64,000 bases of DNA, taken from positions 62,001 to 126,000 of the forward strand of contig NZ_JACGXN010000004.1 of NCBI RefSeq assembly GCF_014138285.1, written 5' to 3'. The notes under the pieces are model-generated. The model worked only from the letters and a program-made list of their open reading frames with translations, ran no database searches and was not told the DNA's origin. The position numbers were made by a program, and so were the translations under genes. Each line of letters opens with the position of its first letter. Position 1 is the stretch's first letter. Positions 21,055 through 62,599 of the stretch are shown piece by piece. This DNA is from Phyllobacterium myrsinacearum. Lineage in GTDB: Bacteria > Pseudomonadota > Alphaproteobacteria > Rhizobiales > Rhizobiaceae.

Positions 21055-22788
21055 TCACACGAAGCGAACGCTGCTTTCCTGTGGAACGATATAAACGCGA
21101 AGGGGCAGGGCCCGTCCGCGGATAGCCACCTCACGCACGTCGAGGCCAGTCGTATCGGAACCCGCCAAGGTGATTACCGGCTCTGAAACGACGAGTGTCA
21201 CATCGAATTCCTTGGCGACAGTTTCCAGCCGACTGGCCACGTTGACCGTATCGCCAATTGCGGTCAGGCTTTTAACCGCGCCATAGCCCATGGCTCCAAC
21301 GATAGCCGGGCCGGTATGAATACCGATGGCCACGCGCAAGGGAATACTGAGTTCGCCAGCAAGTTCACCGTTGAGCCGCTCGATTTCCTTGACGATGATC
21401 GTTGCCGCTTTCAGCGCATTGCTGCAGGCGTCCGCTGCAGAGCTGTTCAGTCCGAACAGTGCCATTGCACCGTCGCCAATGAATTTGTCGAGGCGGCCGC
21501 CGGAGCGCTCTACAGCTTGACCGACAATGGCGAAGTACCGGTTGAGCAGAAAAACGATGTCATAAGGCAATCGCGCCTCGGTGAGCATGGTGAAGCTGCG
21601 GATATCGCAGAACAGGATCGCGATTTCGCGCTCACGCCCTGGACTTGCCTGCTGGCTACCCGTTGGAACAATGCTTTCAAGACTTGGGACAAGAAGCGGA
21701 ACAACACTGATATCGCTCGTCGGATGCAACTGACAGGCGAGCCGGACGCCGTGATCGGCGCCGATACGGGTCAGGGTCGCCTGTTCGATGGGCTGCGGCG
21801 GCGGCAGTGTTTCAGCCCCCTCCAGAACCTGGACACGGCACGTTGAACACCGGCCCTTGCCGCCGCACACAGCGTAATGCGGTATGCCGCCAAGCCGGCT
21901 TGCCTCGAGGACGCTGAAGCCGAGGGGTACCCGGACGCTTTGGCCATCGGCGTAGCGGATTTGGATCTGGCTGGCCCGCTCGCGCCAGCGCCGATAAACG
22001 CGCATGGCAAGAACGAGCGCGAGACCGCCGGCGAAAGCGCCATAAAGCCCGGTTTTGATGAGGAATTCGTCCTCCTTGACCTCGGTGCGTTCGGCAGGGG
22101 AGGTGTAGCGGGTGGAATTGTAATTCTTATGGCCCTGATAGCCGGACGAGGGATATTCGCCGTAACCGGAAGCGGGCGACATATTGGCGATCGTTCGACC
22201 CGTATTGGCAAAACCAAGCAGTGCAAGAACCGGCAGGAGTATGGCAACGGTCAGCAGCACGGGAGCCGCCTGCTGATACCATTGCCTGTAACGCAGCCAG
22301 AAATGCACGCCAATGCAGCCGTGACACCAGATGACAATCAGCGCGACCGTTTGTTTGATGCCATTGAAAGGCGAGGTGATCCAGAACCCCCGTATGACAG
22401 CCTCGTAGCTGTCATAGTAGTTGGATATCTCGTAGCGGATGCGTGTACCGACCACGTGCTCGATGATCAGAACGGGTATCAGCAGTCCAAGGATAATCTG
22501 CAGGGCCTCGCCAAGAGGCATATAAAGTGTACGGCGCATATAAAGCGATCGCATGACCAGAATGACATGGGTGATCGCTGCTCCGTAAAAGATCACGGTA
22601 CCAACGGGATTGCGCCAGATGAACAGAAACCAGCGGCGGCCCTCTTCAGCGGCAGAAAGTGAAATGAGATTGAGGGAATGGTTTGCCAGATGCAACGTCA
22701 GGAATGTGAGCATGATCAGGCCTGATGCCAGTCGTGCCCTGCGCAAGGACCGCTCGGAAAGCATGGGTGCTGTAGCCACTATTGTCAT
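21055..22788 (-). CDS. cyaC: Adenylate cyclase with SdhC-like diheme anchor and 2Fe-2S domain (CyaC type)
   Basis: A 577-residue protein. Residues 1-260 form about six membrane helices with His residues placed like haem ligands of succinate dehydrogenase/fumarate reductase anchors (LTLHLANH, ITHVILVMRSLY, IIEHVVGTR, WCHGCIGVHFW). Residues about 290-370 are a ferredoxin-like domain with CGGKGRCSTC and a later LACQL. The class III cyclase domain follows, with metal Asp residues in LFCDIRSFT and FIGDGAMALFG, adenine-selecting Lys and Asp (LDKFIGD, AIGDTVNVASR). This matches Sinorhizobium CyaC, reported as a cyclase with a respiratory-complex-like anchor. It would make cAMP at the inner membrane in response to quinone or redox state. 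Confidence 0.85.
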   Translation of the reverse strand: MTIVATAPMLSERSLRRARLASGLIMLTFLTLHLANHSLNLISLSAAEEGRRWFLFIWRNPVGTVIFYGAAITHVILVMRSLYMRRTLYMPLGEALQIILGLLIPVLIIEHVVGTRIRYEISNYYDSYEAVIRGFWITSPFNGIKQTVALIVIWCHGCIGVHFWLRYRQWYQQAAPVLLTVAILLPVLALLGFANTGRTIANMSPASGYGEYPSSGYQGHKNYNSTRYTSPAERTEVKEDEFLIKTGLYGAFAGGLALVLAMRVYRRWRERASQIQIRYADGQSVRVPLGFSVLEASRLGGIPHYAVCGGKGRCSTCRVQVLEGAETLPPPQPIEQATLTRIGADHGVRLACQLHPTSDISVVPLLVPSLESIVPTGSQQASPGREREIAILFCDIRSFTMLTEARLPYDIVFLLNRYFAIVGQAVERSGGRLDKFIGDGAMALFGLNSSAADACSNALKAATIIVKEIERLNGELAGELSIPLRVAIGIHTGPAIVGAMGYGAVKSLTAIGDTVNVASRLETVAKEFDVTLVVSEPVITLAGSDTTGLDVREVAIRGRALPLRVYIVPQESSVRFV

Positions 22789-23045
22789 AAATGCCGAATC
22801 AATCCCCCGCGCCTTGCCTGATATGACGTCCTTCGCACTTCATTGGAAGCTTATGCGAGCCCACCTGATTTGGCGAGCCATAGGCGTGCGTTCAAGCGCA
22901 ATGATGGCTTTTTGACAAACGGTTGCGTGATGGCGATCAAAAGATTGTTAGTGTCAGGAGGCCTGAACCGGCTATAGATTTGAAGGAATCGGCCGATATT
23001 CGCCGAAATGGTTGAAACGATTGTGAAATACTGGATCGCTTGCGC
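22789..23045. other. Divergent spacer between cyclase and glycosyltransferase genes
   Basis: These 257 bases hold the promoters for two divergent genes. No inverted repeat or operator stood out, and no gene is called. Confidence 0.4.
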
Positions 23046-24137
23046 ATGCAGGTCGCGTTTTATGCTCCCTTGAAATCACCCAGTCATCCGGTTCCCTCGG
23101 GTGACCGGCAAATGGCCCGCTTGCTGATTGCTGCGCTTCAGAAGGCTGGCCATAGCGTGGAGGTGGTTTCCGGGCTCCGCAGTTTTTCGAAGTTACCCAT
23201 TTTTGAAGACCGGCAACGTATCGCGGCCAGTGCGCAAAGGGAGATTGAACGTCTCTCGGGTCTATGGGGCGCAGATGCAAAACCCGATCTCTGGTTCTGC
23301 TACCATCCCTATTACAAGGCGCCTGATCTGATCGGTCCCGCTCTGTCGATCGCTTTGGATATTCCCTATGTCACGGCGGAAGCATCCTATTCGCCGCGCC
23401 GTAATGCCACCGGTTGGGCCGAGACGCAGATATTGGTGGCTGAAGCGGTGCGTGGTGCCTCGGTTAATCTCTGTTTTACGCAACGGGATATGAACGGTCT
23501 TGCCGCGAACATTCCAGGTGCACGACTTGCAAGGCTGAAGCCGTTTATCGATGTTGATCCCTTTCGCAGTGGGCCGGTTGCGGCTCATCCGCATAGGCTT
23601 GTGACAGTGGCGATGATGCGGCCCGGCGACAAGCTGCACAGCTATGAGATGCTGGCGAGATCTTTGTCCCTGATCGGTGACCGCGAATGGACGCTGACTA
23701 TTGTCGGCGACGGACCGGTCGAGAACGAAGTGAAAGCCCTGTTTTCAGCATTTGGCGAGCGAATAAGCTGGTTGGGCCAACGGAACGCGCAAGAGGTTGC
23801 CGCGTTGTTGGAAGAAGGTGGAATCTATGTCTGGCCCGGTTGCGGCGAAGCCTATGGGATCGCTTATCTGGAGGCGCAGGCGGCAGGTTTGCCCGTGGTT
23901 GCACAGGCGACAGCGGGTGTGCCGGAAGTGGTTCATGATGGTGTGACGGGTTTCCTCACGCACGAAAATGATGCGCAGGCCTATGCTGACGCTATCGCCA
24001 GCCTGCTCGACGATAGCGATCTTCGGTTATCAATGGGCACAGCGGCGCGCCGTTTTGTGTTGCAGGAGAGATCGCTGGAGGTTGCCGCAGGACGGCTTGA
24101 TGCGCTGCTCAAAAATGCAATGGGAGGAAGTCAATGA
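23046..24137 (+). CDS. Glycosyltransferase, GT4 type
   Basis: A protein of about 363 residues with a GT-B fold pattern: N-terminal GDRQMARLLIAALQKAGHSVEVV, C-terminal TIVGDGPVENEVKAL, ISWLGQRNAQEVAALL and the donor-binding GEAYGIAYLEAQAAGLPVVA (E-x7-E motif). Sugar and acceptor are unknown. A TTG at 23040 is also possible as start; the ATG at 23046 has GGAT at better spacing. Its stop overlaps the next start (ATGA at 24134-24137), so the two are translationally coupled. Confidence 0.85.
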   Translation: MQVAFYAPLKSPSHPVPSGDRQMARLLIAALQKAGHSVEVVSGLRSFSKLPIFEDRQRIAASAQREIERLSGLWGADAKPDLWFCYHPYYKAPDLIGPALSIALDIPYVTAEASYSPRRNATGWAETQILVAEAVRGASVNLCFTQRDMNGLAANIPGARLARLKPFIDVDPFRSGPVAAHPHRLVTVAMMRPGDKLHSYEMLARSLSLIGDREWTLTIVGDGPVENEVKALFSAFGERISWLGQRNAQEVAALLEEGGIYVWPGCGEAYGIAYLEAQAAGLPVVAQATAGVPEVVHDGVTGFLTHENDAQAYADAIASLLDDSDLRLSMGTAARRFVLQERSLEVAAGRLDALLKNAMGGSQ

Positions 24138-24895
24138 CGGACGATCCAATCTGGCAGCCCCTGCAAGCCGAGCTTGCACGTTGGATTCACGCTAATCGCA
24201 GTGCCCGATTCTGGTTGCGGGATGACGATGCTGTCGAGCCAACAGACGCGCTGGATCGCCTGCTCCAACTCGCCGGTGAATCCAAAGTGCCTCTGACACT
24301 TGCCGTGATTCCCGCGCATACGGGGGAACCGTTGGTCAAACGCCTCGAAAGCGAACGTTGGGTCTCTGTGGCGGTCCATGGCTGGTCGCACGAGAATAAT
24401 GCGCCAAAGGACCGGAAAAAACAGGAACTCGGCCCGGATCGTCCGCGCGCGCTGGTTCTTGAGCAACTGCAGGATGGTTGCAGACTTCTTGCCAAGCTCC
24501 ATCCGATACGATTTGTGCCCGTACTTGTCCCGCCATGGAACCGGATTGATCCAGCGCTGCTGCCTTATCTCGGTGATTGCGGATTCCAGGCGCTATCGGT
24601 GTTTGGAGCGGCAAAAAAGCCGGCAAATTCACTGCCTGCAGTTAACACCCATGTCGATCTGATGGACTGGCACGGCACCAAAGGTTGCCGCGACCATGCG
24701 GAACTTGTCGCCGCTATCGTGACAGAGTTGCGCCAGCGGTTTGACGGAAGTTCCGAGCCAATCGGAATTCTGACCCACCATCTTGTCCACGATGAGTCTG
24801 CATGGGCGTTCCTGAAGAAGCTTTTCCAGGTCGTGGCAAAGACGCCCGGCGGGCGCTGGCTCTCCATCAATGAGCTAATGAAGAGCCAAAGTTAA
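24134..24895 (+). CDS. Polysaccharide deacetylase-like protein
   Basis: A 253-residue protein related to NodB-fold deacetylases of the divergent rhizobial type. The metal site residues can be seen in FWLRDDDAVEP (Asp) and VAVHGWSHEN (His-x3-His), and a late LTHHLVHD supplies further His. It is coupled by ATGA overlap to the glycosyltransferase gene, which suggests a shared glycan substrate. No signal peptide is seen, so it probably works in the cytoplasm. Confidence 0.75.
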   Translation: MTDDPIWQPLQAELARWIHANRSARFWLRDDDAVEPTDALDRLLQLAGESKVPLTLAVIPAHTGEPLVKRLESERWVSVAVHGWSHENNAPKDRKKQELGPDRPRALVLEQLQDGCRLLAKLHPIRFVPVLVPPWNRIDPALLPYLGDCGFQALSVFGAAKKPANSLPAVNTHVDLMDWHGTKGCRDHAELVAAIVTELRQRFDGSSEPIGILTHHLVHDESAWAFLKKLFQVVAKTPGGRWLSINELMKSQS

Positions 24896-24897
24896 CA

Positions 24898-25728
24898 TTA
24901 GAGATCAATGATCTGACCGTCACGCGCCGCAAAAGTCCCGGCGAAGCGCTTCTTCGCCAATTGCTCAAAGCGGTCTATCTCGTCATCCGTGCGCGATGGT
25001 GCATGATGGAAGAGCGCAAGCTGGTTAACCTTTCCAGCAGCTGCCAGCTTCACGCCGTGCTGCCAGGTAGAATGGCCGTAGCCGAAGCGGCGCGGCATTT
25101 CATCTTCCGTATAGGTACAATCATACACAACGAGATCTGCTCCGTCGATCAGACCAAGCACGGCAGGATCGAGGATGCCGGCTTCATGCTCCGTGTCGTA
25201 AATGAGCGCCAGCACCTTGCCTGCCCATTCGACGCGATAGCCAATGCAACCGCCGGGATGATTAAGACTATCTGTGCGGATTGCGACACCCTCGTGCGGG
25301 GTGAGAATGTCGCCGGATCGAAAATCACGAAAGCTGAGACTTGCCTTGCAAATATCCGGCTCAACGGGAAACCATGGCGGGCGCATGAATTGGCGAACCA
25401 TTTCCCGTGTGGTCATAATACCTGAGAGATGACCGGACCAAAGCCGCACATTCATCATTGGATTGTAAAGCGGGGCGAAATAGGGCAAGCCGATAATGTG
25501 GTCATAGTGACAATGGGTGAAGATGATGTCGAGGTTGTCCACACCCTCACCGGACACGGCATCACCAGCCTGACGCAAGCCGGAGCCCCCGTCAAAAATC
25601 AGTCTATGCTCGCCGCAGCGTACTTCGATACATGACGTGTTTCCGCCATAACGTTCAAATTCGGGGCCGGATACTGGTACGCTGCCACGCGTTCCCCAGA
25701 ATTTCACCCGAAATATCTCTTCGCTCAT
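24898..25728 (-). CDS. Metallo-beta-lactamase-fold hydrolase
   Basis: A 276-residue protein starting with the FWGTRGSVPVSG pattern typical of a large family of MBL-fold phosphodiesterase-like hydrolases. Metal ligands are visible: THCHYDH (about 71-77), NHPGG, IYDTEHE and LFHHAP. Some members act on cyclic nucleotides or are linked to signalling proteins, but the substrate cannot be read here. It converges with the deacetylase gene and is divergent from the metallophosphoesterase gene. Confidence 0.8.
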   Translation of the reverse strand: MSEEIFRVKFWGTRGSVPVSGPEFERYGGNTSCIEVRCGEHRLIFDGGSGLRQAGDAVSGEGVDNLDIIFTHCHYDHIIGLPYFAPLYNPMMNVRLWSGHLSGIMTTREMVRQFMRPPWFPVEPDICKASLSFRDFRSGDILTPHEGVAIRTDSLNHPGGCIGYRVEWAGKVLALIYDTEHEAGILDPAVLGLIDGADLVVYDCTYTEDEMPRRFGYGHSTWQHGVKLAAAGKVNQLALFHHAPSRTDDEIDRFEQLAKKRFAGTFAARDGQIIDL

Positions 25729-25928: not shown

Positions 25929-27698
25929 ATGTCATCGGCCACATTTCCCTCCCTCGCAGTCATCGCAGATGCCCACTTTCATGATCTTTATGGCGACTAT
26001 GATTTCGCCGGAGTAGCCGCTGGTGGTCGACGTATGACGGCCCGGCGCTTGACGGACACGGTGCGTTCCACGCGGGTTTTCAACGAAAGCTATTTTGCGC
26101 TGCGCACCGCGCTTGACGATGTCGTCAGCCGGAGCATCAAGCATGTGGTGTTGCTTGGCGATTATTCCGACGATGGACAAGTCTCCACGCTCAAGGCGCT
26201 TCGGCAACTGCTGGATGGGTACACGCAAGCGCATGGGCTGATCTTCACGGCGGTTCCCGGAAATCATGATATTTTTGGCCCCAAAGGCCGGCATCACGCC
26301 AAGCGATTGTTGAATCCTGACGGCAGCTACACGATCGTGGCCAGTGACAGCGCGTTCATTGACGAGGATGCCGATGGTATGGTCGTTACGGACAAGATGT
26401 ACTGTCAGGGCTATCCGGAGGGGCTGCAGGCATTGCCTGACTTCGGATTTTTCAGGCGGGTGACGGATATTCATTGGGAAACACCCTTCGGGCTGGATGA
26501 CAATCCCGCCGGACGGCTTTACCCGATCCGCTCGGCGGACGGGACGAACGAATATCAGCTTATGGATACATCCTATCTGGTCGAGCCAATTCCAGGTCTC
26601 TGGCTACTGATGATCGATGCCAATGTATTCGTGCCGCGTGATGGTGATTTCGAGCGAGGCGATTCCGGAGCATTCATCGACAGCACCAATGCAGGCTGGA
26701 ATACTATGCTGCATCACAAGCGGTTTGTTATCGACTGGATAAAGAGTGTTTCCGCACGTGCAGAGATCGAAGGTAAGCATCTTCTTACATTTTCGCACTA
26801 CCCGATGCTGGATATTCTGGACGATACGCATGCGGATGAAAAACAACTGATCGGCAATACCAGCTCGGTCAAACGCACGCCGCTTCCTGATGTTGCCGCC
26901 GCCATGATGCAGGCCGGTGTACGGATTCATTTCAGCGGCCATCTTCACGTCAATGATACAGCGCGAGCGGAGAAGGGTGCGTCCTGGCTCGTTAACGTCG
27001 GGGTGCCGTCACTCGTCGCTTTCCCGCCTGCTTTCAAGGTCATCACCTTCATGGAACAGAGTCTGCACATCGAAACGATCAGTATTGATGATCAGCCGAT
27101 CGATCCCGTCCTGAATGACCAGTACCGCACCGAAATCAAACTGACCGGCAAGAATGTCGGGAACATGCTGGACGCCGTGGATTATGGCGCCTTCATATCC
27201 GAACACGTTGATCAACTGGTCGTGCATCGCTATCTCAGGCGGGAGTGGCCTAAGGATATTGCGCGCATATTACCGCTGCTCACTCTTGGCGATCTCCTCA
27301 CGCTCAGCCTTTTCGAGCAGCCGGTGGACATGGATGCAACAATCATTCTCGTTCATGCGGAACGCGGACGCCCCGAGACCAAAGCCAAAATACAGGCACT
27401 TCTCGCGAGTGAAGATATTGGGCTCGAGCATTTTGACAGGATGACGGCACTGGAACTTCTGGGCGACTGGTATCGCCTGCGCATGGCAAGCGAAATGGCG
27501 CTTGATCGCATATCTGCAGCAAGGCAGGAAATCTATCGGGCCCTGATCGCTGTTTTTGCTGGTTCCAATGCAATACAGATTGGCGGCGCGCAGGCACATT
27601 TTGCCCTGATGCTGCAGATGATGGGCCGCTATTTCTCTGGCCTGCCGTCACGCAATTTCAGGATCGACCTTGCTAGCGGCAGGATCGATAAAATTTGA
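25929..27698 (+). CDS. Calcineurin-like metallophosphoesterase, long form
   Basis: A 589-residue protein. The N-terminal 370 residues carry all dimetal motifs: VIADAHFHD (about 11-19), LLGDYSDDG (about 74-82), VPGNHD, TFSHYPML and FSGHLHVND. This set is shared with class III cyclic nucleotide phosphodiesterases, but those are usually near 270 residues. An extra C-terminal region of about 200 residues is unrecognised and mostly helical in appearance. No clear signal peptide. It converges with the cNMP-binding protein gene (18 bases between stops). A phosphodiesterase role for cAMP is a guess from context. Confidence 0.8.
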   Translation: MSSATFPSLAVIADAHFHDLYGDYDFAGVAAGGRRMTARRLTDTVRSTRVFNESYFALRTALDDVVSRSIKHVVLLGDYSDDGQVSTLKALRQLLDGYTQAHGLIFTAVPGNHDIFGPKGRHHAKRLLNPDGSYTIVASDSAFIDEDADGMVVTDKMYCQGYPEGLQALPDFGFFRRVTDIHWETPFGLDDNPAGRLYPIRSADGTNEYQLMDTSYLVEPIPGLWLLMIDANVFVPRDGDFERGDSGAFIDSTNAGWNTMLHHKRFVIDWIKSVSARAEIEGKHLLTFSHYPMLDILDDTHADEKQLIGNTSSVKRTPLPDVAAAMMQAGVRIHFSGHLHVNDTARAEKGASWLVNVGVPSLVAFPPAFKVITFMEQSLHIETISIDDQPIDPVLNDQYRTEIKLTGKNVGNMLDAVDYGAFISEHVDQLVVHRYLRREWPKDIARILPLLTLGDLLTLSLFEQPVDMDATIILVHAERGRPETKAKIQALLASEDIGLEHFDRMTALELLGDWYRLRMASEMALDRISAARQEIYRALIAVFAGSNAIQIGGAQAHFALMLQMMGRYFSGLPSRNFRIDLASGRIDKI

Positions 27699-27716: not shown

Positions 27717-28166
27717 TCAGTGCTTGCTGCGCTCTTCCGACAGTTCGGCCGTCGTATGGCTTAGCCGGCTAGCCAGAACCCGCATGATCTCGATGGTCAT
27801 CTCAGGATAATCGCTCAACAGCTTGAGAAAATGTTCCTTGCTGATACGCAGGGCTTCAAGAGGCGTCGATGCGGTTACGGTGGCGGTGCGCAGCACGTCG
27901 CAGAGAATTGCAATTTCGCCAACAATGGAATCATGCTCGACTTCGGCTACCTTGATCTGGCCGCTGGGCGTATCAACGCTGACATCGGCGGTACCGGAGA
28001 GGATCACGTAGGCGGCGTCGGCCATATCTCCTTGGCGGAACAGGGCCTGATCAGCCCGATAGCTGACACGATCCGACGTAAACGCCAGAAGCTTCAGCTT
28101 TGCTGGCGCCACACCGGAAAACAGCGGAATCCGCCGCAGCATTTCGACTTCGTCTTTCAGAAGCAT
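27717..28166 (-). CDS. Stand-alone cyclic nucleotide-binding domain protein
   Basis: A 149-residue protein made of one CRP-type cNMP-binding domain. The phosphate-binding cassette VGEIAILCDVLRTATV has the expected Gly-Glu and Arg-Thr-Ala, so ligand binding looks intact. There is no DNA-binding domain, membrane segment or kinase domain, so it probably acts by contacting another protein. It lies 46 bases after the degenerate ABC exporter gene on the same strand and is likely co-transcribed, which suggests it as regulator or partner of that protein. Confidence 0.85.
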   Translation of the reverse strand: MLLKDEVEMLRRIPLFSGVAPAKLKLLAFTSDRVSYRADQALFRQGDMADAAYVILSGTADVSVDTPSGQIKVAEVEHDSIVGEIAILCDVLRTATVTASTPLEALRISKEHFLKLLSDYPEMTIEIMRVLASRLSHTTAELSEERSKH

Positions 28167-28212: not shown

Positions 28213-30927
28213 TTACGATACGAGTTCTTTGAATATACCGTTTTTCTCCAAAAGAGTCGCGTGGGTTCCGTCTTCAACCAAAGTCCCACGGTCGAAAACA
28301 AGGACGCGATCAAACAAGTTTGCCAGAGAAGAATTGGCCAGCACCCAGATGATTGCGGGCGCATGACCCTCTTCATGCAGGTCTTGCAAGATATTGCGCA
28401 TGATCTGATCCTGCACGCGCTGATCAAGGGCAGGCAATGGACGATTGAAGATCACATAATCAGCCCGCTTGAGCAGAGCCCTGGCGACGTTCAGTTTCTG
28501 TCGTTGCACGTTGGTAATGCGTTTTCCGCCAGAGCCGACATCGAAATCAAGTCCAATGGACAGCACGCTGTCATAAAGACCAAGCTTGTCGAAAAGGTCA
28601 CGAAGAATGACGCGTATGCGATCCGGTCCGTCTGCCTGGGTGAACCCGATTCTCCCGAAGAGAACATTGTCCATCAGGTTGGCGGACTCTATGAATTTCT
28701 TGGCATCATACCGTTCAACTACGGCTTTCAGATCATCAGGCAAATTCTTGTGGAAGCGTAGACGCGCATCAACGATCTTGGCCATGAGTTCATCGGTCAA
28801 AAGACCAAAGCGGTGTCTTGGTTCGATATAGGCAAAGCTCAAGCGGATGATACTGGACCGCTCGTCGGGAGAGGCGGCATCAAAATCGCGCCCCTGCAGC
28901 TTCTGCAACAGCAACTGATAGGTTGGGATATCATCGGCGGTCATAAATGTCAGCTGCTGGAAGAACGGATGGTCCGGTGGTAAGTCCTGGAACAGTTCTA
29001 TCGCGTTGGCCGCGATCTCAAGACCCATATTGTAAAGATCGATATTCAGACCGCTTTCCCGCAATATGGAGCGGAAATACGGATGGGCAGCAAGCTTCAA
29101 ATTGGTCATCATCGGTCGCTTTACAGTACCGAAAAGCAAATTCTCGCCAATAGTCGCCTGCGGATTGTAGGCTTTCGGTTCAAAGGGCACCACAAGCCCA
29201 TCAAGATCCTCCTCCTTGAGGCTTTTGCGCAGGGCCTGCCGAAGTTCCACAATGCGGTTTGTCAGGTCGGAATGGGTAGTCGTGTCAACCTGTGACCGAA
29301 GCGCCAGGTCGACAATATCCTGCGAGATCATGACCGCTTCAAGCACTGGCCGCACGACACTGAAAAGATCGTGGGGACCCGTGACACCCGCAGATTGATA
29401 GTCGACCCAGTCGCTGTTGAGATCAAGGTCAGGATTGCCGGCGAGGCGTGCTTCGTTGATATCCCATTTGTACTTGATCGCCTTCGCACCTTCGTACTCG
29501 ACCTTGGTCAAGGGTGCATGCTTGAGACCGTACAGGAGATTGTCGCGCAGCGATCCATGGAAGAAATAGGCATCCGAAGCAGCATAGCCGATACGACGAC
29601 CGGTAATGGATTCCGGGAGTTCAAGAATATCCTTGCCGTCAATGGTGATCCGGCCGGAGTCGGGCCAGATGAGGCGCGCAAACGCCTCGGCAATCGCTTC
29701 CCCGCCGCTGCCGCTGTTGCCGACAATCGCAACAGTCTCGCCGAGCTTGATCTCAAGCGAAACATGCTCGACGAGGCGCGCGCCGCTGTCGTCAGACAGT
29801 GTAAGATTCACCGCATTCAGCGAATGTTCCAGTTTGCCGACGGGTTCATGAACAACCGCCTGGATGTGTGGGTCCACAAGCATATCTACGTTGAACTGTT
29901 CGACAACCTGCGCATACTTGACCTGAACGTCCTGGCGTGACTGATCCCAGTCGATCAGTTCCTTCAAGGGGCCGGGCAGATCTTTATAGGCATTGATGAC
30001 AGCAACAAGCTGGCCGATATCAAGCCGGCCCTGCAAGGCGAGAACGCCGCCGATGGAATAAAACAGGAAGGGCGTCACCTGCGCGAGGAAATTGTTGATG
30101 AATTTGACCAGGAACTTCCATTGATACAGATCGTAGCGGATGGAGAAGATCAGCCCGAGACGGGCTGCAATGTCCGCGCGCTCGTAATTGGACGTATCGT
30201 TGCCGTGGATGGTGCCGATGCCATCGACAATCTCGCCTACGCGGCCTGACAGCTCGCGTGCAGTCAACTGGCGCTGACGGCCGAGCTCAAGCAATCTTTT
30301 GCGCATGCGTGGAATGACTACGCCTTGTACGGCGACGATGCCGGCCGCAATCATGCCCAGCCAGAAATTCTGCAGGATAATGAAGACGAGCGCTGTAATG
30401 GCTTGTCCGCCAAGAAGGGCAGGCTGGACAAACGCGTCACCGGTGAAACCGCCCATGGGCTCCACCTCATCCTTGATCATGGTCGCGATTTCGGCCGATT
30501 TCACCCGCTTGAACTGGCTTGGGGGAAAGCGCAGAACGCGGTCGATCAATTCAAAACGGATGCGGCGCAGCATGCGCTCGCCAAGCCGGCCCTTGTAGGT
30601 GTTGATGTAGAGCTTGAAGAGGCCGTTGATCACGACAAGCAGCAGAAACACCAGGCTCAAGGCCATCAGCATCTGGAAGCGCGTCAGCTGAAGCCCTTCA
30701 AAAAACATCACCTTGCCGAAATAGGGCAGATTGTACTGGATGCGCATGAAGGTCTGCGTCGCACCTTCCGCTTCAAATCCCGTGCCCTGTATGGGGCCGT
30801 TGACAATCTGTTTCGGCAAGTCGAACGACAGGAAATACGGGATCATCGAGGCCGCAACGACCGTCAATATCCATATTTGCTGGAACCGTGTGTTCGACCA
30901 GATGTAGCGTGTTAGACTTTTTTCCAT
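28213..30927 (-). CDS. Degenerate ABC exporter-like membrane protein with a large insertion in the ATPase domain
   Basis: About 904 residues. The first 350 resemble an ABC exporter membrane domain (about six helices). The ATPase domain (about 365-904) has lost its catalytic residues. Walker A reads GNSGSGGEA, without Lys-Ser/Thr. The signature region is VGSGGKRITNVQRQKLNVARALL-like rather than LSGGQ. Walker B is VIFNRP instead of a DE pair, and the switch His is replaced (VLANSS). Some 300 extra residues sit between Walker A and signature. A Q-loop-like phrase recurs three times: SLRDNLLYG, TIGENLLFG and NLMDNVLFG. ATP hydrolysis is therefore unlikely. The frame reaches a TTG at 31020; ATG 30927 (MEKSLTRYIW) is preferred. 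A cNMP-binding protein gene follows. Confidence 0.85.
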   Translation of the reverse strand: MEKSLTRYIWSNTRFQQIWILTVVAASMIPYFLSFDLPKQIVNGPIQGTGFEAEGATQTFMRIQYNLPYFGKVMFFEGLQLTRFQMLMALSLVFLLLVVINGLFKLYINTYKGRLGERMLRRIRFELIDRVLRFPPSQFKRVKSAEIATMIKDEVEPMGGFTGDAFVQPALLGGQAITALVFIILQNFWLGMIAAGIVAVQGVVIPRMRKRLLELGRQRQLTARELSGRVGEIVDGIGTIHGNDTSNYERADIAARLGLIFSIRYDLYQWKFLVKFINNFLAQVTPFLFYSIGGVLALQGRLDIGQLVAVINAYKDLPGPLKELIDWDQSRQDVQVKYAQVVEQFNVDMLVDPHIQAVVHEPVGKLEHSLNAVNLTLSDDSGARLVEHVSLEIKLGETVAIVGNSGSGGEAIAEAFARLIWPDSGRITIDGKDILELPESITGRRIGYAASDAYFFHGSLRDNLLYGLKHAPLTKVEYEGAKAIKYKWDINEARLAGNPDLDLNSDWVDYQSAGVTGPHDLFSVVRPVLEAVMISQDIVDLALRSQVDTTTHSDLTNRIVELRQALRKSLKEEDLDGLVVPFEPKAYNPQATIGENLLFGTVKRPMMTNLKLAAHPYFRSILRESGLNIDLYNMGLEIAANAIELFQDLPPDHPFFQQLTFMTADDIPTYQLLLQKLQGRDFDAASPDERSSIIRLSFAYIEPRHRFGLLTDELMAKIVDARLRFHKNLPDDLKAVVERYDAKKFIESANLMDNVLFGRIGFTQADGPDRIRVILRDLFDKLGLYDSVLSIGLDFDVGSGGKRITNVQRQKLNVARALLKRADYVIFNRPLPALDQRVQDQIMRNILQDLHEEGHAPAIIWVLANSSLANLFDRVLVFDRGTLVEDGTHATLLEKNGIFKELVS

Positions 30928-32624: not shown

Positions 32625-33683
32625 CTATGACTTGCGGCGTGATGCTTGATAGGCGGCCATGAAGCGGGGTGCGGCCTCGGCGACGGCGCTCAGCGAATAG
32701 CCTCCCTCCTGAACGATGACAGCCGGCAGGTCGACGGCACCCCAAACGGCTCCGATTTCGGCATAGGCCTCCGTTGTCACCTTGAGTTTTGACAGAGGGT
32801 CATTGTGATGCGCATCCCAACCGGCTGAAATGACCAGCGCTGTCGATCCGTGCTTTACAACGGCATCGGCCAACGCGCGATTGGCTTCAATAAAGGCCTC
32901 GTCGCCGCTGCCCTCGGACAAGGGCAGATTGAGGTTGGTACCTTGGCCCGCACCGGCACCGGTTTCATCGGCATACCCGCTGTAGTGCGGATAGTAGTTC
33001 GACGGATCCGTATGGGTGGACCCGAAGAACACGTCGTCGCGCGTGTAGAAAATGGCTTGGGTGCCATCCCCGTGATGCGTATCGAAATCGATGATTGCTA
33101 CCCGATCATGCCGCTTGCGCAATTGTTGGGCGATAATGGCTGCATTGTTGAAATAGCAGAATCCTGCCGCCCGGTCGGCATAGGCGTGATGGCCGGGTGG
33201 ACGGCACAGGGCGAAAGACTCCCGGGCACCATTCAAGATGACATCGGCGGCGGCAATGGCTGTCTGGGCGGAAGCATAGGCGGAAGCGTAGGTATGCTCC
33301 ATCATCGCGCAGGAAAGGCCGTTGATGTACCAGCCAGCCTGACCAAGAATACCTGTTGGGCGCGGGCGAGGACGAGCGGCGAAATCCTGCCCAGCCCCTT
33401 GATAGGCATTGACGTTCGGCAAGACTTCGGGGCCATGATTCGGCAATTGCATGAATCTCTCATAGGCGGTCTGCAGGAAAGCGACATAGTGATCCGCGTG
33501 GACGGCACGTATGGGATCAAGTCCAGAATCGTGGGGTTCTTCCTGAGAGAAGCCCAGTTGTGTCAGGGCCTCAATCAGCGTGTGGGCCCGTGCCGGATTT
33601 TCAAGTGGGTCGGTAATCCTGCCGTTGATCATATACTGTTTGGGTTGGTGTGCCATTTGCTGGCTGGCAAAGAACAGTTTCAT
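32625..33683 (-). CDS. Histone deacetylase-like amidohydrolase (acetylpolyamine deacetylase type)
   Basis: A 352-residue zinc enzyme with all class II HDAC motifs: CRPPGHHAYADRAAGFCYFN (tandem His), DFDTHHGDGTQAIFY (zinc ligands Asp and His), SAGWDAHHNDPL (zinc Asp) and QEGGYSL (catalytic Tyr). In bacteria this family includes acetylpolyamine amidohydrolases, which remove acetyl groups from acetylputrescine and similar amines. A transporter gene lies just downstream, which could bring in the acetylated substrate. The exact substrate is unknown. Confidence 0.85.
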   Translation of the reverse strand: MKLFFASQQMAHQPKQYMINGRITDPLENPARAHTLIEALTQLGFSQEEPHDSGLDPIRAVHADHYVAFLQTAYERFMQLPNHGPEVLPNVNAYQGAGQDFAARPRPRPTGILGQAGWYINGLSCAMMEHTYASAYASAQTAIAAADVILNGARESFALCRPPGHHAYADRAAGFCYFNNAAIIAQQLRKRHDRVAIIDFDTHHGDGTQAIFYTRDDVFFGSTHTDPSNYYPHYSGYADETGAGAGQGTNLNLPLSEGSGDEAFIEANRALADAVVKHGSTALVISAGWDAHHNDPLSKLKVTTEAYAEIGAVWGAVDLPAVIVQEGGYSLSAVAEAAPRFMAAYQASRRKS

Positions 33684-61748: not shown

Positions 61749-62599
61749 GCCTTTTCTCCCTTGCGGCCGATCAGCAAAGTGAGAGCGACGAGACCAAGTG
61801 TTACAAGCACCAGAAACACGGCCATGGCCGCCGCAAACGGCATGTTGGACTGGTAAATGGCCTGATCGGTGATGAGAACGGAGAGCGTCCAATGCTGCGG
61901 CCTGCCAAGAATCTGCGGTAGCAGATACGAGCCCAGCGCGAAGATGAAAACCATGATCAGCGTTGCCATGATCGTGTTGCGCAGTGCCGGCACAAGCACG
62001 TTGAAAAAAGCTCGTACGGGCGACGAACCCAGTGTCCGCGCGGCCTCCATCAGTGTTGGGTCAAGTCGGACAAGGGCGGGATAAAGAACGAGGACCGTAT
62101 AGGGAAGGGCCTGATAGACCATTCCCGTCAGCACCGCCCCGAAACTCGGCGACAGTGCGACAGCCTGTTTCATCAAGCCGAGTTGAACAAGAATGTTGGT
62201 GATCCCGGCCGTCCGCGAAAACAGGGTGGACCAGGCAAAGCCGATGATGACTTCCGACAGCGAAAGCACCGAGAGCAGGGCAACGAGCCATATCACCTGC
62301 AACCGACGCGGCAATTTTGAAAGGAGATAGGTGAAGGGCAGAGCAAGAACAACACAACACACGGCAACTGTGACGGCCAGCATCAGCGAGAAGCCGAGAA
62401 CACCACCGAAGAAGACGGTAAGAAAACGCTCGTAGTTGGAAAGGACAAAAGCGGGCGTATAGAAGCCGCCTTGCTGGCGCTGGAAGAAGCTCACCGCGAT
62501 CATTGTGCCGAATGGCACCACGAAAAACACCAGCAGCATACCCGCAGGAAAAAACAGCGGCCCGTAATCGGCTATGGATTGGGGGGCTTCGCGCTTCAT
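61745..62599 (-). CDS. ABC permease, polyamine/iron family, PotB-like
   Basis: A 284-residue protein with six helices and the motif EAARTLGSSPVRAFFNVLVPALRN. It overlaps the ATPase stop by four bases at its start and the PotC-like start by four at its end. Confidence 0.88.
   Translation of the reverse strand: MKREAPQSIADYGPLFFPAGMLLVFFVVPFGTMIAVSFFQRQQGGFYTPAFVLSNYERFLTVFFGGVLGFSLMLAVTVAVCCVVLALPFTYLLSKLPRRLQVIWLVALLSVLSLSEVIIGFAWSTLFSRTAGITNILVQLGLMKQAVALSPSFGAVLTGMVYQALPYTVLVLYPALVRLDPTLMEAARTLGSSPVRAFFNVLVPALRNTIMATLIMVFIFALGSYLLPQILGRPQHWTLSVLITDQAIYQSNMPFAAAMAVFLVLVTLGLVALTLLIGRKGEKA

Follow-up and report, generated by a model that had tools for sequence, protein, structure and literature searches.

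The stretch of 64,000 nucleotides from Phyllobacterium myrsinacearum analysed here (positions 62,001 to 126,000 of contig NZ_JACGXN010000004.1; hereafter the window) contains, at 28213-30927 on the minus strand, a gene for a 904-residue protein that has the fold of an ATP-binding cassette (ABC) exporter and none of the diagnostic ATPase residues. Judged from sequence, this pseudo-exporter belongs to a dedicated family of the Alphaproteobacteria, in which the nucleotide-binding domain (NBD) of an ABCB-like exporter, a class we take to be type IV, has turned into a predicted pseudo-ATPase and the transmembrane domain (TMD) is the most constrained part. We propose that the protein acts as an ATP-independent, cyclic-nucleotide-responsive gate or scaffold of ABC fold in a surface-glycan pathway, a reading to which we assign a probability of roughly 45%. 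ABC exporters are regarded as ATP-driven. With matches in about one sampled class genome in three (129 of 385, E 1e-60 or better), broken ATPase motifs and a membrane domain conserved above all else, the family makes it directly testable whether the ABC exporter fold can function free of ATP under the control of a second messenger.

The gene boundaries were confirmed as exact, with the ATG at 30927 (protein start MEKSLTRYIW) and the stop codon ending at 28213; an alignment of the window copy with 79 relatives (80 sequences) shows M1, E2, S4 and L5 without variation. The host genome is 5.97 Mb in size, and the closest named relative among the matches found is a Phyllobacterium protein with 97% identity over the whole length. 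Pfam recognises the membrane domain as ABC_membrane (1.1e-16), and ABC_tran (1.1e-12) covers the opening part of the NBD, both above the cut-off. The same order of TMD and ABC NBD is seen in the profile matches to PDB structures, where the likeness to ABCB-like exporters such as MsbA and PCAT1 covers TMD and NBD fold (2e-79 to 6e-52 among the 60 matches listed). Residues 52-84 form a loop without a column in at least half of the paralogues. The features of the gene and of its downstream neighbour are as follows.

28213..30927, minus strand: pseudo-ABC exporter, 904 residues; TMD and degenerate NBD with an internal repeat insert.
29893..30927, minus strand: TMD, residues 1-345, the best conserved part of the family (51.6% mean pairwise identity); Pfam ABC_membrane at residues 87-311.
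29698..29721, minus strand: Walker A remnant GNSGSGGE, residues 403-410, from the alignment; Lys replaced by Gly, Ser/Thr by Glu.
28567..29520, minus strand: insert-bearing region, residues 470-787, mostly without canonical columns.
28981..29292, minus strand: repeat unit, residues ~546-649, with AYNPQATIGENLLFG; hhalign to the next unit 98.8%, E 8.8e-16.
28453..28812, minus strand: repeat unit, residues ~706-825, the canonical Q-loop/helical region; hhalign to exporters of the same genome 99.1%, E 4.7e-18.
28495..28521, minus strand: signature remnant RITNVQRQK, residues 803-811, from the alignment; ITNVQ in place of LSGGQ.
28435..28458, minus strand: Walker B remnant YVIFNRPL, residues 824-831, from the alignment; YVIFNR in place of a motif ending in DE.
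28327..28353, minus strand: switch-region remnant IIWVLANSS, residues 859-867, from the alignment; His replaced (WVLAN).
27717..28166, minus strand: cyclic-nucleotide-binding (cNMP) protein of 149 residues, next gene downstream of the pseudo-exporter; Pfam cNMP_binding 1.5e-20, cassette GEIAILCDVLRTAT.

A preliminary description, made from the letters of the window and their translations, had reported the loss of the Walker A Lys, the signature, the Walker B Asp-Glu and the switch His. All of these losses were borne out, and the Q-loop Gln, replaced by Ser, can be added to them; the window copy retains 0/8 diagnostic NBD residues. By comparison, 13 of the 14 aligned paralogous exporters from the same genome retain all eight, and the other retains seven. 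The own-genome search gave 17 rows, three of which were left out of this count: the pseudo-exporter itself (L272), L277, which has no Walker A match, and L275, which has GPSAAGKS, SGGQ, DE and IAH.

For the family as a whole, 206 distinct sequences of at least 850 residues, including the window copy, were reduced to 93 representatives below 70% identity; shorter sequences, L255 and short loci re-fetched with longer flanks had been dropped. The motif set of an ATP-driven ABC transporter (Walker A Lys, LSGGQ, Walker B Asp-Glu, switch His) is incomplete throughout, with 0/93 representatives holding all eight residues, and the degeneration is hence common to the family, a point the preliminary description had left to a comparison of homologues. 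None of the eight is retained in 13 representatives, one in 19, two in 14, three in 25, four in 10, five in 11 and six in a single member, which is the maximum. In two canonical exporter families of the class (30 best loci each), seven control residues (Walker A Lys and Ser/Thr, signature Ser and Gly, Walker B Asp and Glu, His) were found together in 30/30 and 30/30 loci.

The claim that the motifs were lost at once does not hold family-wide. The Walker A Lys survives in 51/93 representatives, the catalytic Glu in 43/93 and the switch His in 25/93; the Walker A Ser/Thr that serves as Mg2+ ligand is nearly gone (kept in 7/93, Glu or Asp in 71/93), and the second signature Gly is kept in 11/93. 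A quick tree of the TMD places the 93 members on one side of a branch with support 100 and 14 paralogues on the other, although the paralogue branches are very long and 40 of the 104 inner branches are unsupported. The decay of the NBD looks repeated and graded rather than a single event, since each diagnostic site requires at least 8-27 changes on this tree, counts that cannot separate gain from loss.

Of 398 genomes sampled across the phylum, 27 match the family at 1e-50, every one in the window's own class. A tblastn search (E 1e-3) gave 371 related stretches from named genomes, the best 80 of which were retained, and 262 plasmid records match at 1e-50, chiefly from Rhizobium (144) and Sinorhizobium (80). 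Where the listed plasmid records annotate the family genes, they mostly name them ABC transporter ATP-binding protein. A subfamily from the window's order (L286-L290) carries the same insert with a strongly diverged TMD, shows no intact motifs by eye and looks even more degenerate; one genome (G528) has both this subfamily and the main family. Two or three copies occur in G331 (L236, L240), G154 (L237, L238, L291) and G780, and those of G331 and G154, which are cNMP-fused, might form heterodimers.

The ratio of nonsynonymous to synonymous substitution rates (dN/dS) over the whole gene is 0.014-0.116 in 11 of 12 comparisons, and the largest computable regional value is 0.151. The partners of the window copy were seven Phyllobacterium, two further Rhizobiales and three Rhizobium sequences; dS was saturated for the twelfth comparison (L009) and for several insert comparisons. 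Open frames of ~900 codons are found in nearly all family members, with an internal stop in one listed match. These values indicate that the gene is under strong purifying selection, in agreement with the earlier claim of a selected, intact frame of more than 900 codons. A decaying pseudogene could be suspected because the window copy lacks all eight diagnostic residues, yet the ~900-codon frames in nearly all members and dN/dS of at most 0.151 wherever computable rule it out, leaving it next to no probability. The preliminary description would have been overturned by intact-motif homologues together with a decaying window copy. The sets examined did not bring this case to light, as selection is strong, degeneration is family-wide and no intact-motif homologue with the insert was found among the 93 representatives, the insert-profile matches in the 398 phylum genomes or L286-L290.

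The distribution of this constraint is unusual for an exporter. Mean pairwise identity in the family is 51.6% for the TMD, 37.2% for the canonical part of the NBD and 38.9% for the insert, whereas in the canonical control families the order of TMD and NBD is reversed (54.3 < 65.7% and 44.4 < 61.9%). The comparison indicates a shift of constraint away from the ATPase and onto the membrane part. Furthermore, the polar TMD residues R219, R224, K271, K275, N278, K315 and D316 are each kept in 84-93 of the 93 representatives, and none is the commonest paralogue residue at its column (four commonest compared).

The insertion of some 300 residues noticed in the preliminary description is real, with a size closer to 250 net extra residues: the median length between columns 470 and 745 is 276 (range 249-310, 93 members) vs 24 in four canonical exporters. 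Besides the hhalign matches of the two repeat units given above, profile comparison finds that residues 438-545 match the canonical region (96.7%) and, more weakly, the two units (80.3% and 72.9%). Five of six other protein regions gave 0.4% probability or less against either unit; the sixth, residues 650-705, as defined overlaps with one unit and borders on the other. Much of the insert is, on the evidence of these profiles, a repetition of the NBD's own Q-loop/helical region, and the protein seems to contain three copies of the helical region. An AlphaFold2 model of the NBD, of moderate quality, has the order strand-helix-strand-helix in both repeat units. Structure prediction of the ATPase domain, a check proposed at the outset, yielded models of low confidence. 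The best Foldseek matches of the NBD model are exporter NBDs (top match ComA 3vx4, E 7.1e-6, with low TM-scores). When the insert profile was run against the 398 phylum genomes, the 36 full or near-full matches listed (E 1.1e-45 or better) were all in the window's class; the next match falls to 1.1e-15 and covers the canonical tail alone.

The gene downstream of the pseudo-exporter is a frequent companion. In 96 of 119 diverse loci a homologue of this cNMP protein follows on the same strand at a distance of at most 800 bases, and in 14 more the cNMP domain is fused to the exporter C-terminus (13 plus L239, where the contig ends and the fused domain was seen by Pfam); among the remaining nine, a cNMP match lies in an overlapping longer frame in three. 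Pfam analysis of nine long members found the fused cNMP domain in seven, the other two having N-terminal frame extensions. On the tree, 11 fused representatives fall inside one 13-row group (support 95) together with two unfused members, and ten of them cluster separately (support 88). The window copy has the phosphate-binding cassette pattern, as do 80 of the 96 adjacent homologues; of the 16 adjacent proteins lacking the pattern, the eight printed have Arg at that position. The partner has both the cNMP fold and the cassette and may bind a cyclic nucleotide. It matches TIGR03896 (bacteriocin-type transport-associated protein) at 9.6e-12 and 44.9 bits, below the cut-off of 161.05. Pycsar defence was considered and rejected: PADLOC matches were to the cNMP and cyclase proteins alone, with none to the exporter, and a cyclase is near in 8/95 loci.

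Gene neighbourhoods were counted in 95 of the 119 loci, those with at least 5.5 kb on both sides. The usual setting is a mostly divergent glycan gene cluster, with a GT28-like glycosyltransferase in 68 loci, a GT4 glycosyltransferase in 67, a second GT4 in 66, a second GT28-like gene in 63, a histidine phosphatase in 57 and a polysaccharide deacetylase in 38. The GT28-like gene and both GT4 genes occur all together in 64/95. In R. etli CIAT 652 and R. johnstonii 3841, three genes of the glycosyltransferase cluster are co-directional with the pseudo-exporter and immediately upstream of it. The window itself holds one GT4 and one deacetylase-like gene of the conserved cluster.

The association extends to the level of genomes. 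A GT28-like gene was found in 131 of the 385 class genomes (E 1e-15), and by lists compiled by hand both genes occur in 125, the exporter alone in 4, the GT28-like gene alone in 6 and neither in 250. The cut-off of 1e-15 is loose, with matches weaker than 1e-50 in G071 and G210 (both genes) and in G064 and G284 (GT28-like alone); without these four the counts become 123, 6, 4 and 252. In 35 of the 125 genomes, listed by eye, the two are unlinked, the best GT28-like match lying on another contig (25, which may be mere assembly breaks) or on the same contig at a distance of at least 17 kb (10). The exporter is patchily distributed in one taxonomic family, and there the counts for both, exporter alone, GT28-like alone and neither are 34/1/0/38 of 73 (E 1e-60; counted from tables), and the sole exception (G793) is an 88% complete genome. 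In a control with 142 genomes, the phi coefficient of pseudo-exporter and GT28-like gene was 0.935, vs 0.446 and 0.124 for two canonical exporter families (cut-off 1e-120 for these two).

These observations lead us to suggest a model in which the pseudo-exporter is no longer driven by ATP hydrolysis. Docked on the pseudo-NBD, the partner or the fused cNMP domain would bind a cyclic nucleotide that takes the place of ATP as the switch of the TMD; the switched membrane part would then pass, gate or position the product or a lipid-linked precursor of the glycosyltransferases, such that a surface glycan would be made or exported upon a cyclic-nucleotide signal. A more specific version, an ABC-fold class with ATP exchanged for cyclic nucleotide, in which the pseudo-NBD with its repeated helical region would be the docking platform of the cNMP sensor and the TMD an ATP-independent cyclic-nucleotide-gated translocator of a surface glycan or its precursor, we hold to be somewhat unlikely. 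The co-inherited glycosyltransferase offers a way into a surface-glycan pathway, apparently one without a name, of plant symbionts and other Alphaproteobacteria.

Several observations weigh against the proposed gate or scaffold. The GT28-GT4-GT28 trio of the window's genome is on another contig (C5:175128-178736), six of the 119 loci have no cNMP gene, and the cyclase and the MBL-fold hydrolase are near the pseudo-exporter in only 8/95 loci each. The repeat unit 546-649 matches the canonical exporter region directly only at 9.4% (hhalign, E 8.8e-4), and because of this weak match its origin was read via the sister unit 706-825. The AlphaFold2 models are poor (mean pLDDT 57.9 and 65.2), probably because the input was limited to the close relatives L001-L080. 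Co-occurrence counts ignore phylogeny and are inflated by shared ancestry, although the unlinked cases and the patchy family speak against ancestry as the sole cause; moreover, co-inheritance indicates a shared pathway and not transport. Finally, the Walker A Lys is present in more than half of the representatives, and ATP may therefore still bind in some lineages.

The last point touches on the possibility of a slow ATP-dependent exporter that binds ATP without hydrolysis or hydrolyses it with unusual residues. The survival of Lys, catalytic Glu and His in 51, 43 and 25 of the 93 representatives and a best member with 6/8 residues are consistent with this, but the window copy has 0/8, the Mg2+-ligand Ser/Thr is acidic in 71/93 and the second signature Gly is left in 11/93, which makes it improbable. 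A non-transporting scaffold or sensor, whose TMD holds the glycosyltransferases and the cNMP-binding protein in place at the inner membrane and passes the signal on to them, would fit the pairing with glycosyltransferase and cNMP genes equally well and agrees with the loss of catalytic residues from the NBD. The whole TMD is nevertheless the most conserved part, including polar residues uncommon in paralogues, which seems more than an anchor requires, and we consider a pure scaffold somewhat unlikely.

The protein could also be the inactive subunit of a heterodimer that it forms with a normal half-transporter from another locus. Degenerate sites are well known in heterodimeric exporters, and the available part of PMC7756269 treats exporters with one degenerate site; other half-exporters exist in the same genome, and of 44 sampled genomes that have the pseudo-exporter, 42 also have one of the control exporter families, a possible partner. 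TM287/288, TAP and CFTR share with the family degenerate NBD residues kept by selection (PMC7756269, same part). They retain one consensus site, however, whereas with a pseudo-exporter subunit neither site could be complete: loss of Walker A, Walker B and signature in one half would damage both composite sites. An exporter with all sites lost is not named in the part of PMC7756269 available. A normal partner half is not encoded alongside either, with a further ABC match near the gene in only 2/119 loci (L237, L247), and a heterodimer appears quite improbable.

The proposed ATP-independent gate or scaffold can further be set against known systems. Compared with exporters of the MsbA/PCAT1 type, the family differs in its degenerate motifs, the ~250 extra NBD residues, the cNMP partner and the constraint on the TMD. 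Transporters of the SbmA/BacA type have an ABC-exporter-like membrane part that works without ATP and no NBD; unlike these, the pseudo-exporter family keeps and enlarges its pseudo-NBD. In cyclic-nucleotide-linked bacteriocin exporters a cNMP-binding domain goes with an ABC exporter that is peptidase-bearing and catalytically normal. Unlike these, the pseudo-exporter shows no peptidase domain in the Pfam scan, and it scores below the cut-offs of the bacteriocin exporter models TIGR03796 (160.8 vs 853.3 bits) and TIGR01193 (136.3 vs 523.85). A description of the family was not found in the available part of the open literature on degenerate or cNMP-linked ABC exporters.

An ABC exporter beside glycosyltransferases, MsbA2 of Sinorhizobium meliloti, has been proposed to export an unknown polysaccharide (PMC3687685 and PMC12239276, as far as these were available). 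Identity with MsbA2 was ruled out by position, the msbA2 operon fragment lying at ~938 kb of pSymB (strain 1021) vs 841.7 kb of pSymB (strain 2011) for the family homologue. At the latter locus (L257:8643-16106), exporter and cNMP gene are preceded by GT4 and GT28-like genes and followed by an FkbM-type methyltransferase; the plasmid table holds no annotation there. In the accessible part of PMC11103875, pRL110056 is described as an O-antigen enzyme important for root colonisation; its plasmid also carries the R. johnstonii homologue, to which it should be near by gene numbering, and we would guess that it belongs to the glycan cluster of the pseudo-exporter. Two cluster genes carry the names redA/redB in R. 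etli, for which no paper was found.

The remaining genes of interest in the window are listed below.

21055..22788, minus strand: protein combining a ferredoxin-type 2Fe-2S domain with a class III adenylate/guanylate cyclase domain (Pfam); cyclase near in 8/95 loci.
23040..24137, plus strand: GT4 glycosyltransferase; best match is the second GT4 of the conserved cluster.
24134..24895, plus strand: polysaccharide-deacetylase-like protein; Pfam 0.00019, below the curated cut-off; neighbour in 38/95 loci.
24898..25728, minus strand: MBL-fold hydrolase (phosphodiesterase/RNase Z-like); weak model similarity to cyclic-nucleotide phosphodiesterase and RNase Z; neighbour in 8/95 loci.
25929..27698, plus strand: calcineurin-like phosphoesterase; neighbour in L001 and L020 (Phyllobacterium), 0/95 in the locus count.
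32625-33683, minus strand: histone-deacetylase-fold protein (Pfam 2.7e-74), upstream of the pseudo-exporter; overlaps the long form of a major facilitator superfamily (MFS) transporter frame.

The MBL-fold hydrolase and the calcineurin-like phosphoesterase sit between the cNMP gene and the cyclase, and the protein at 21055-22788 is possibly a redox-sensing cyclase. The cyclase and the two phosphoesterases should not be over-read, because they are uncommon neighbours elsewhere. The histone-deacetylase-fold gene likewise lies beside the exporter in L001 and is not a common neighbour in the loci listed.

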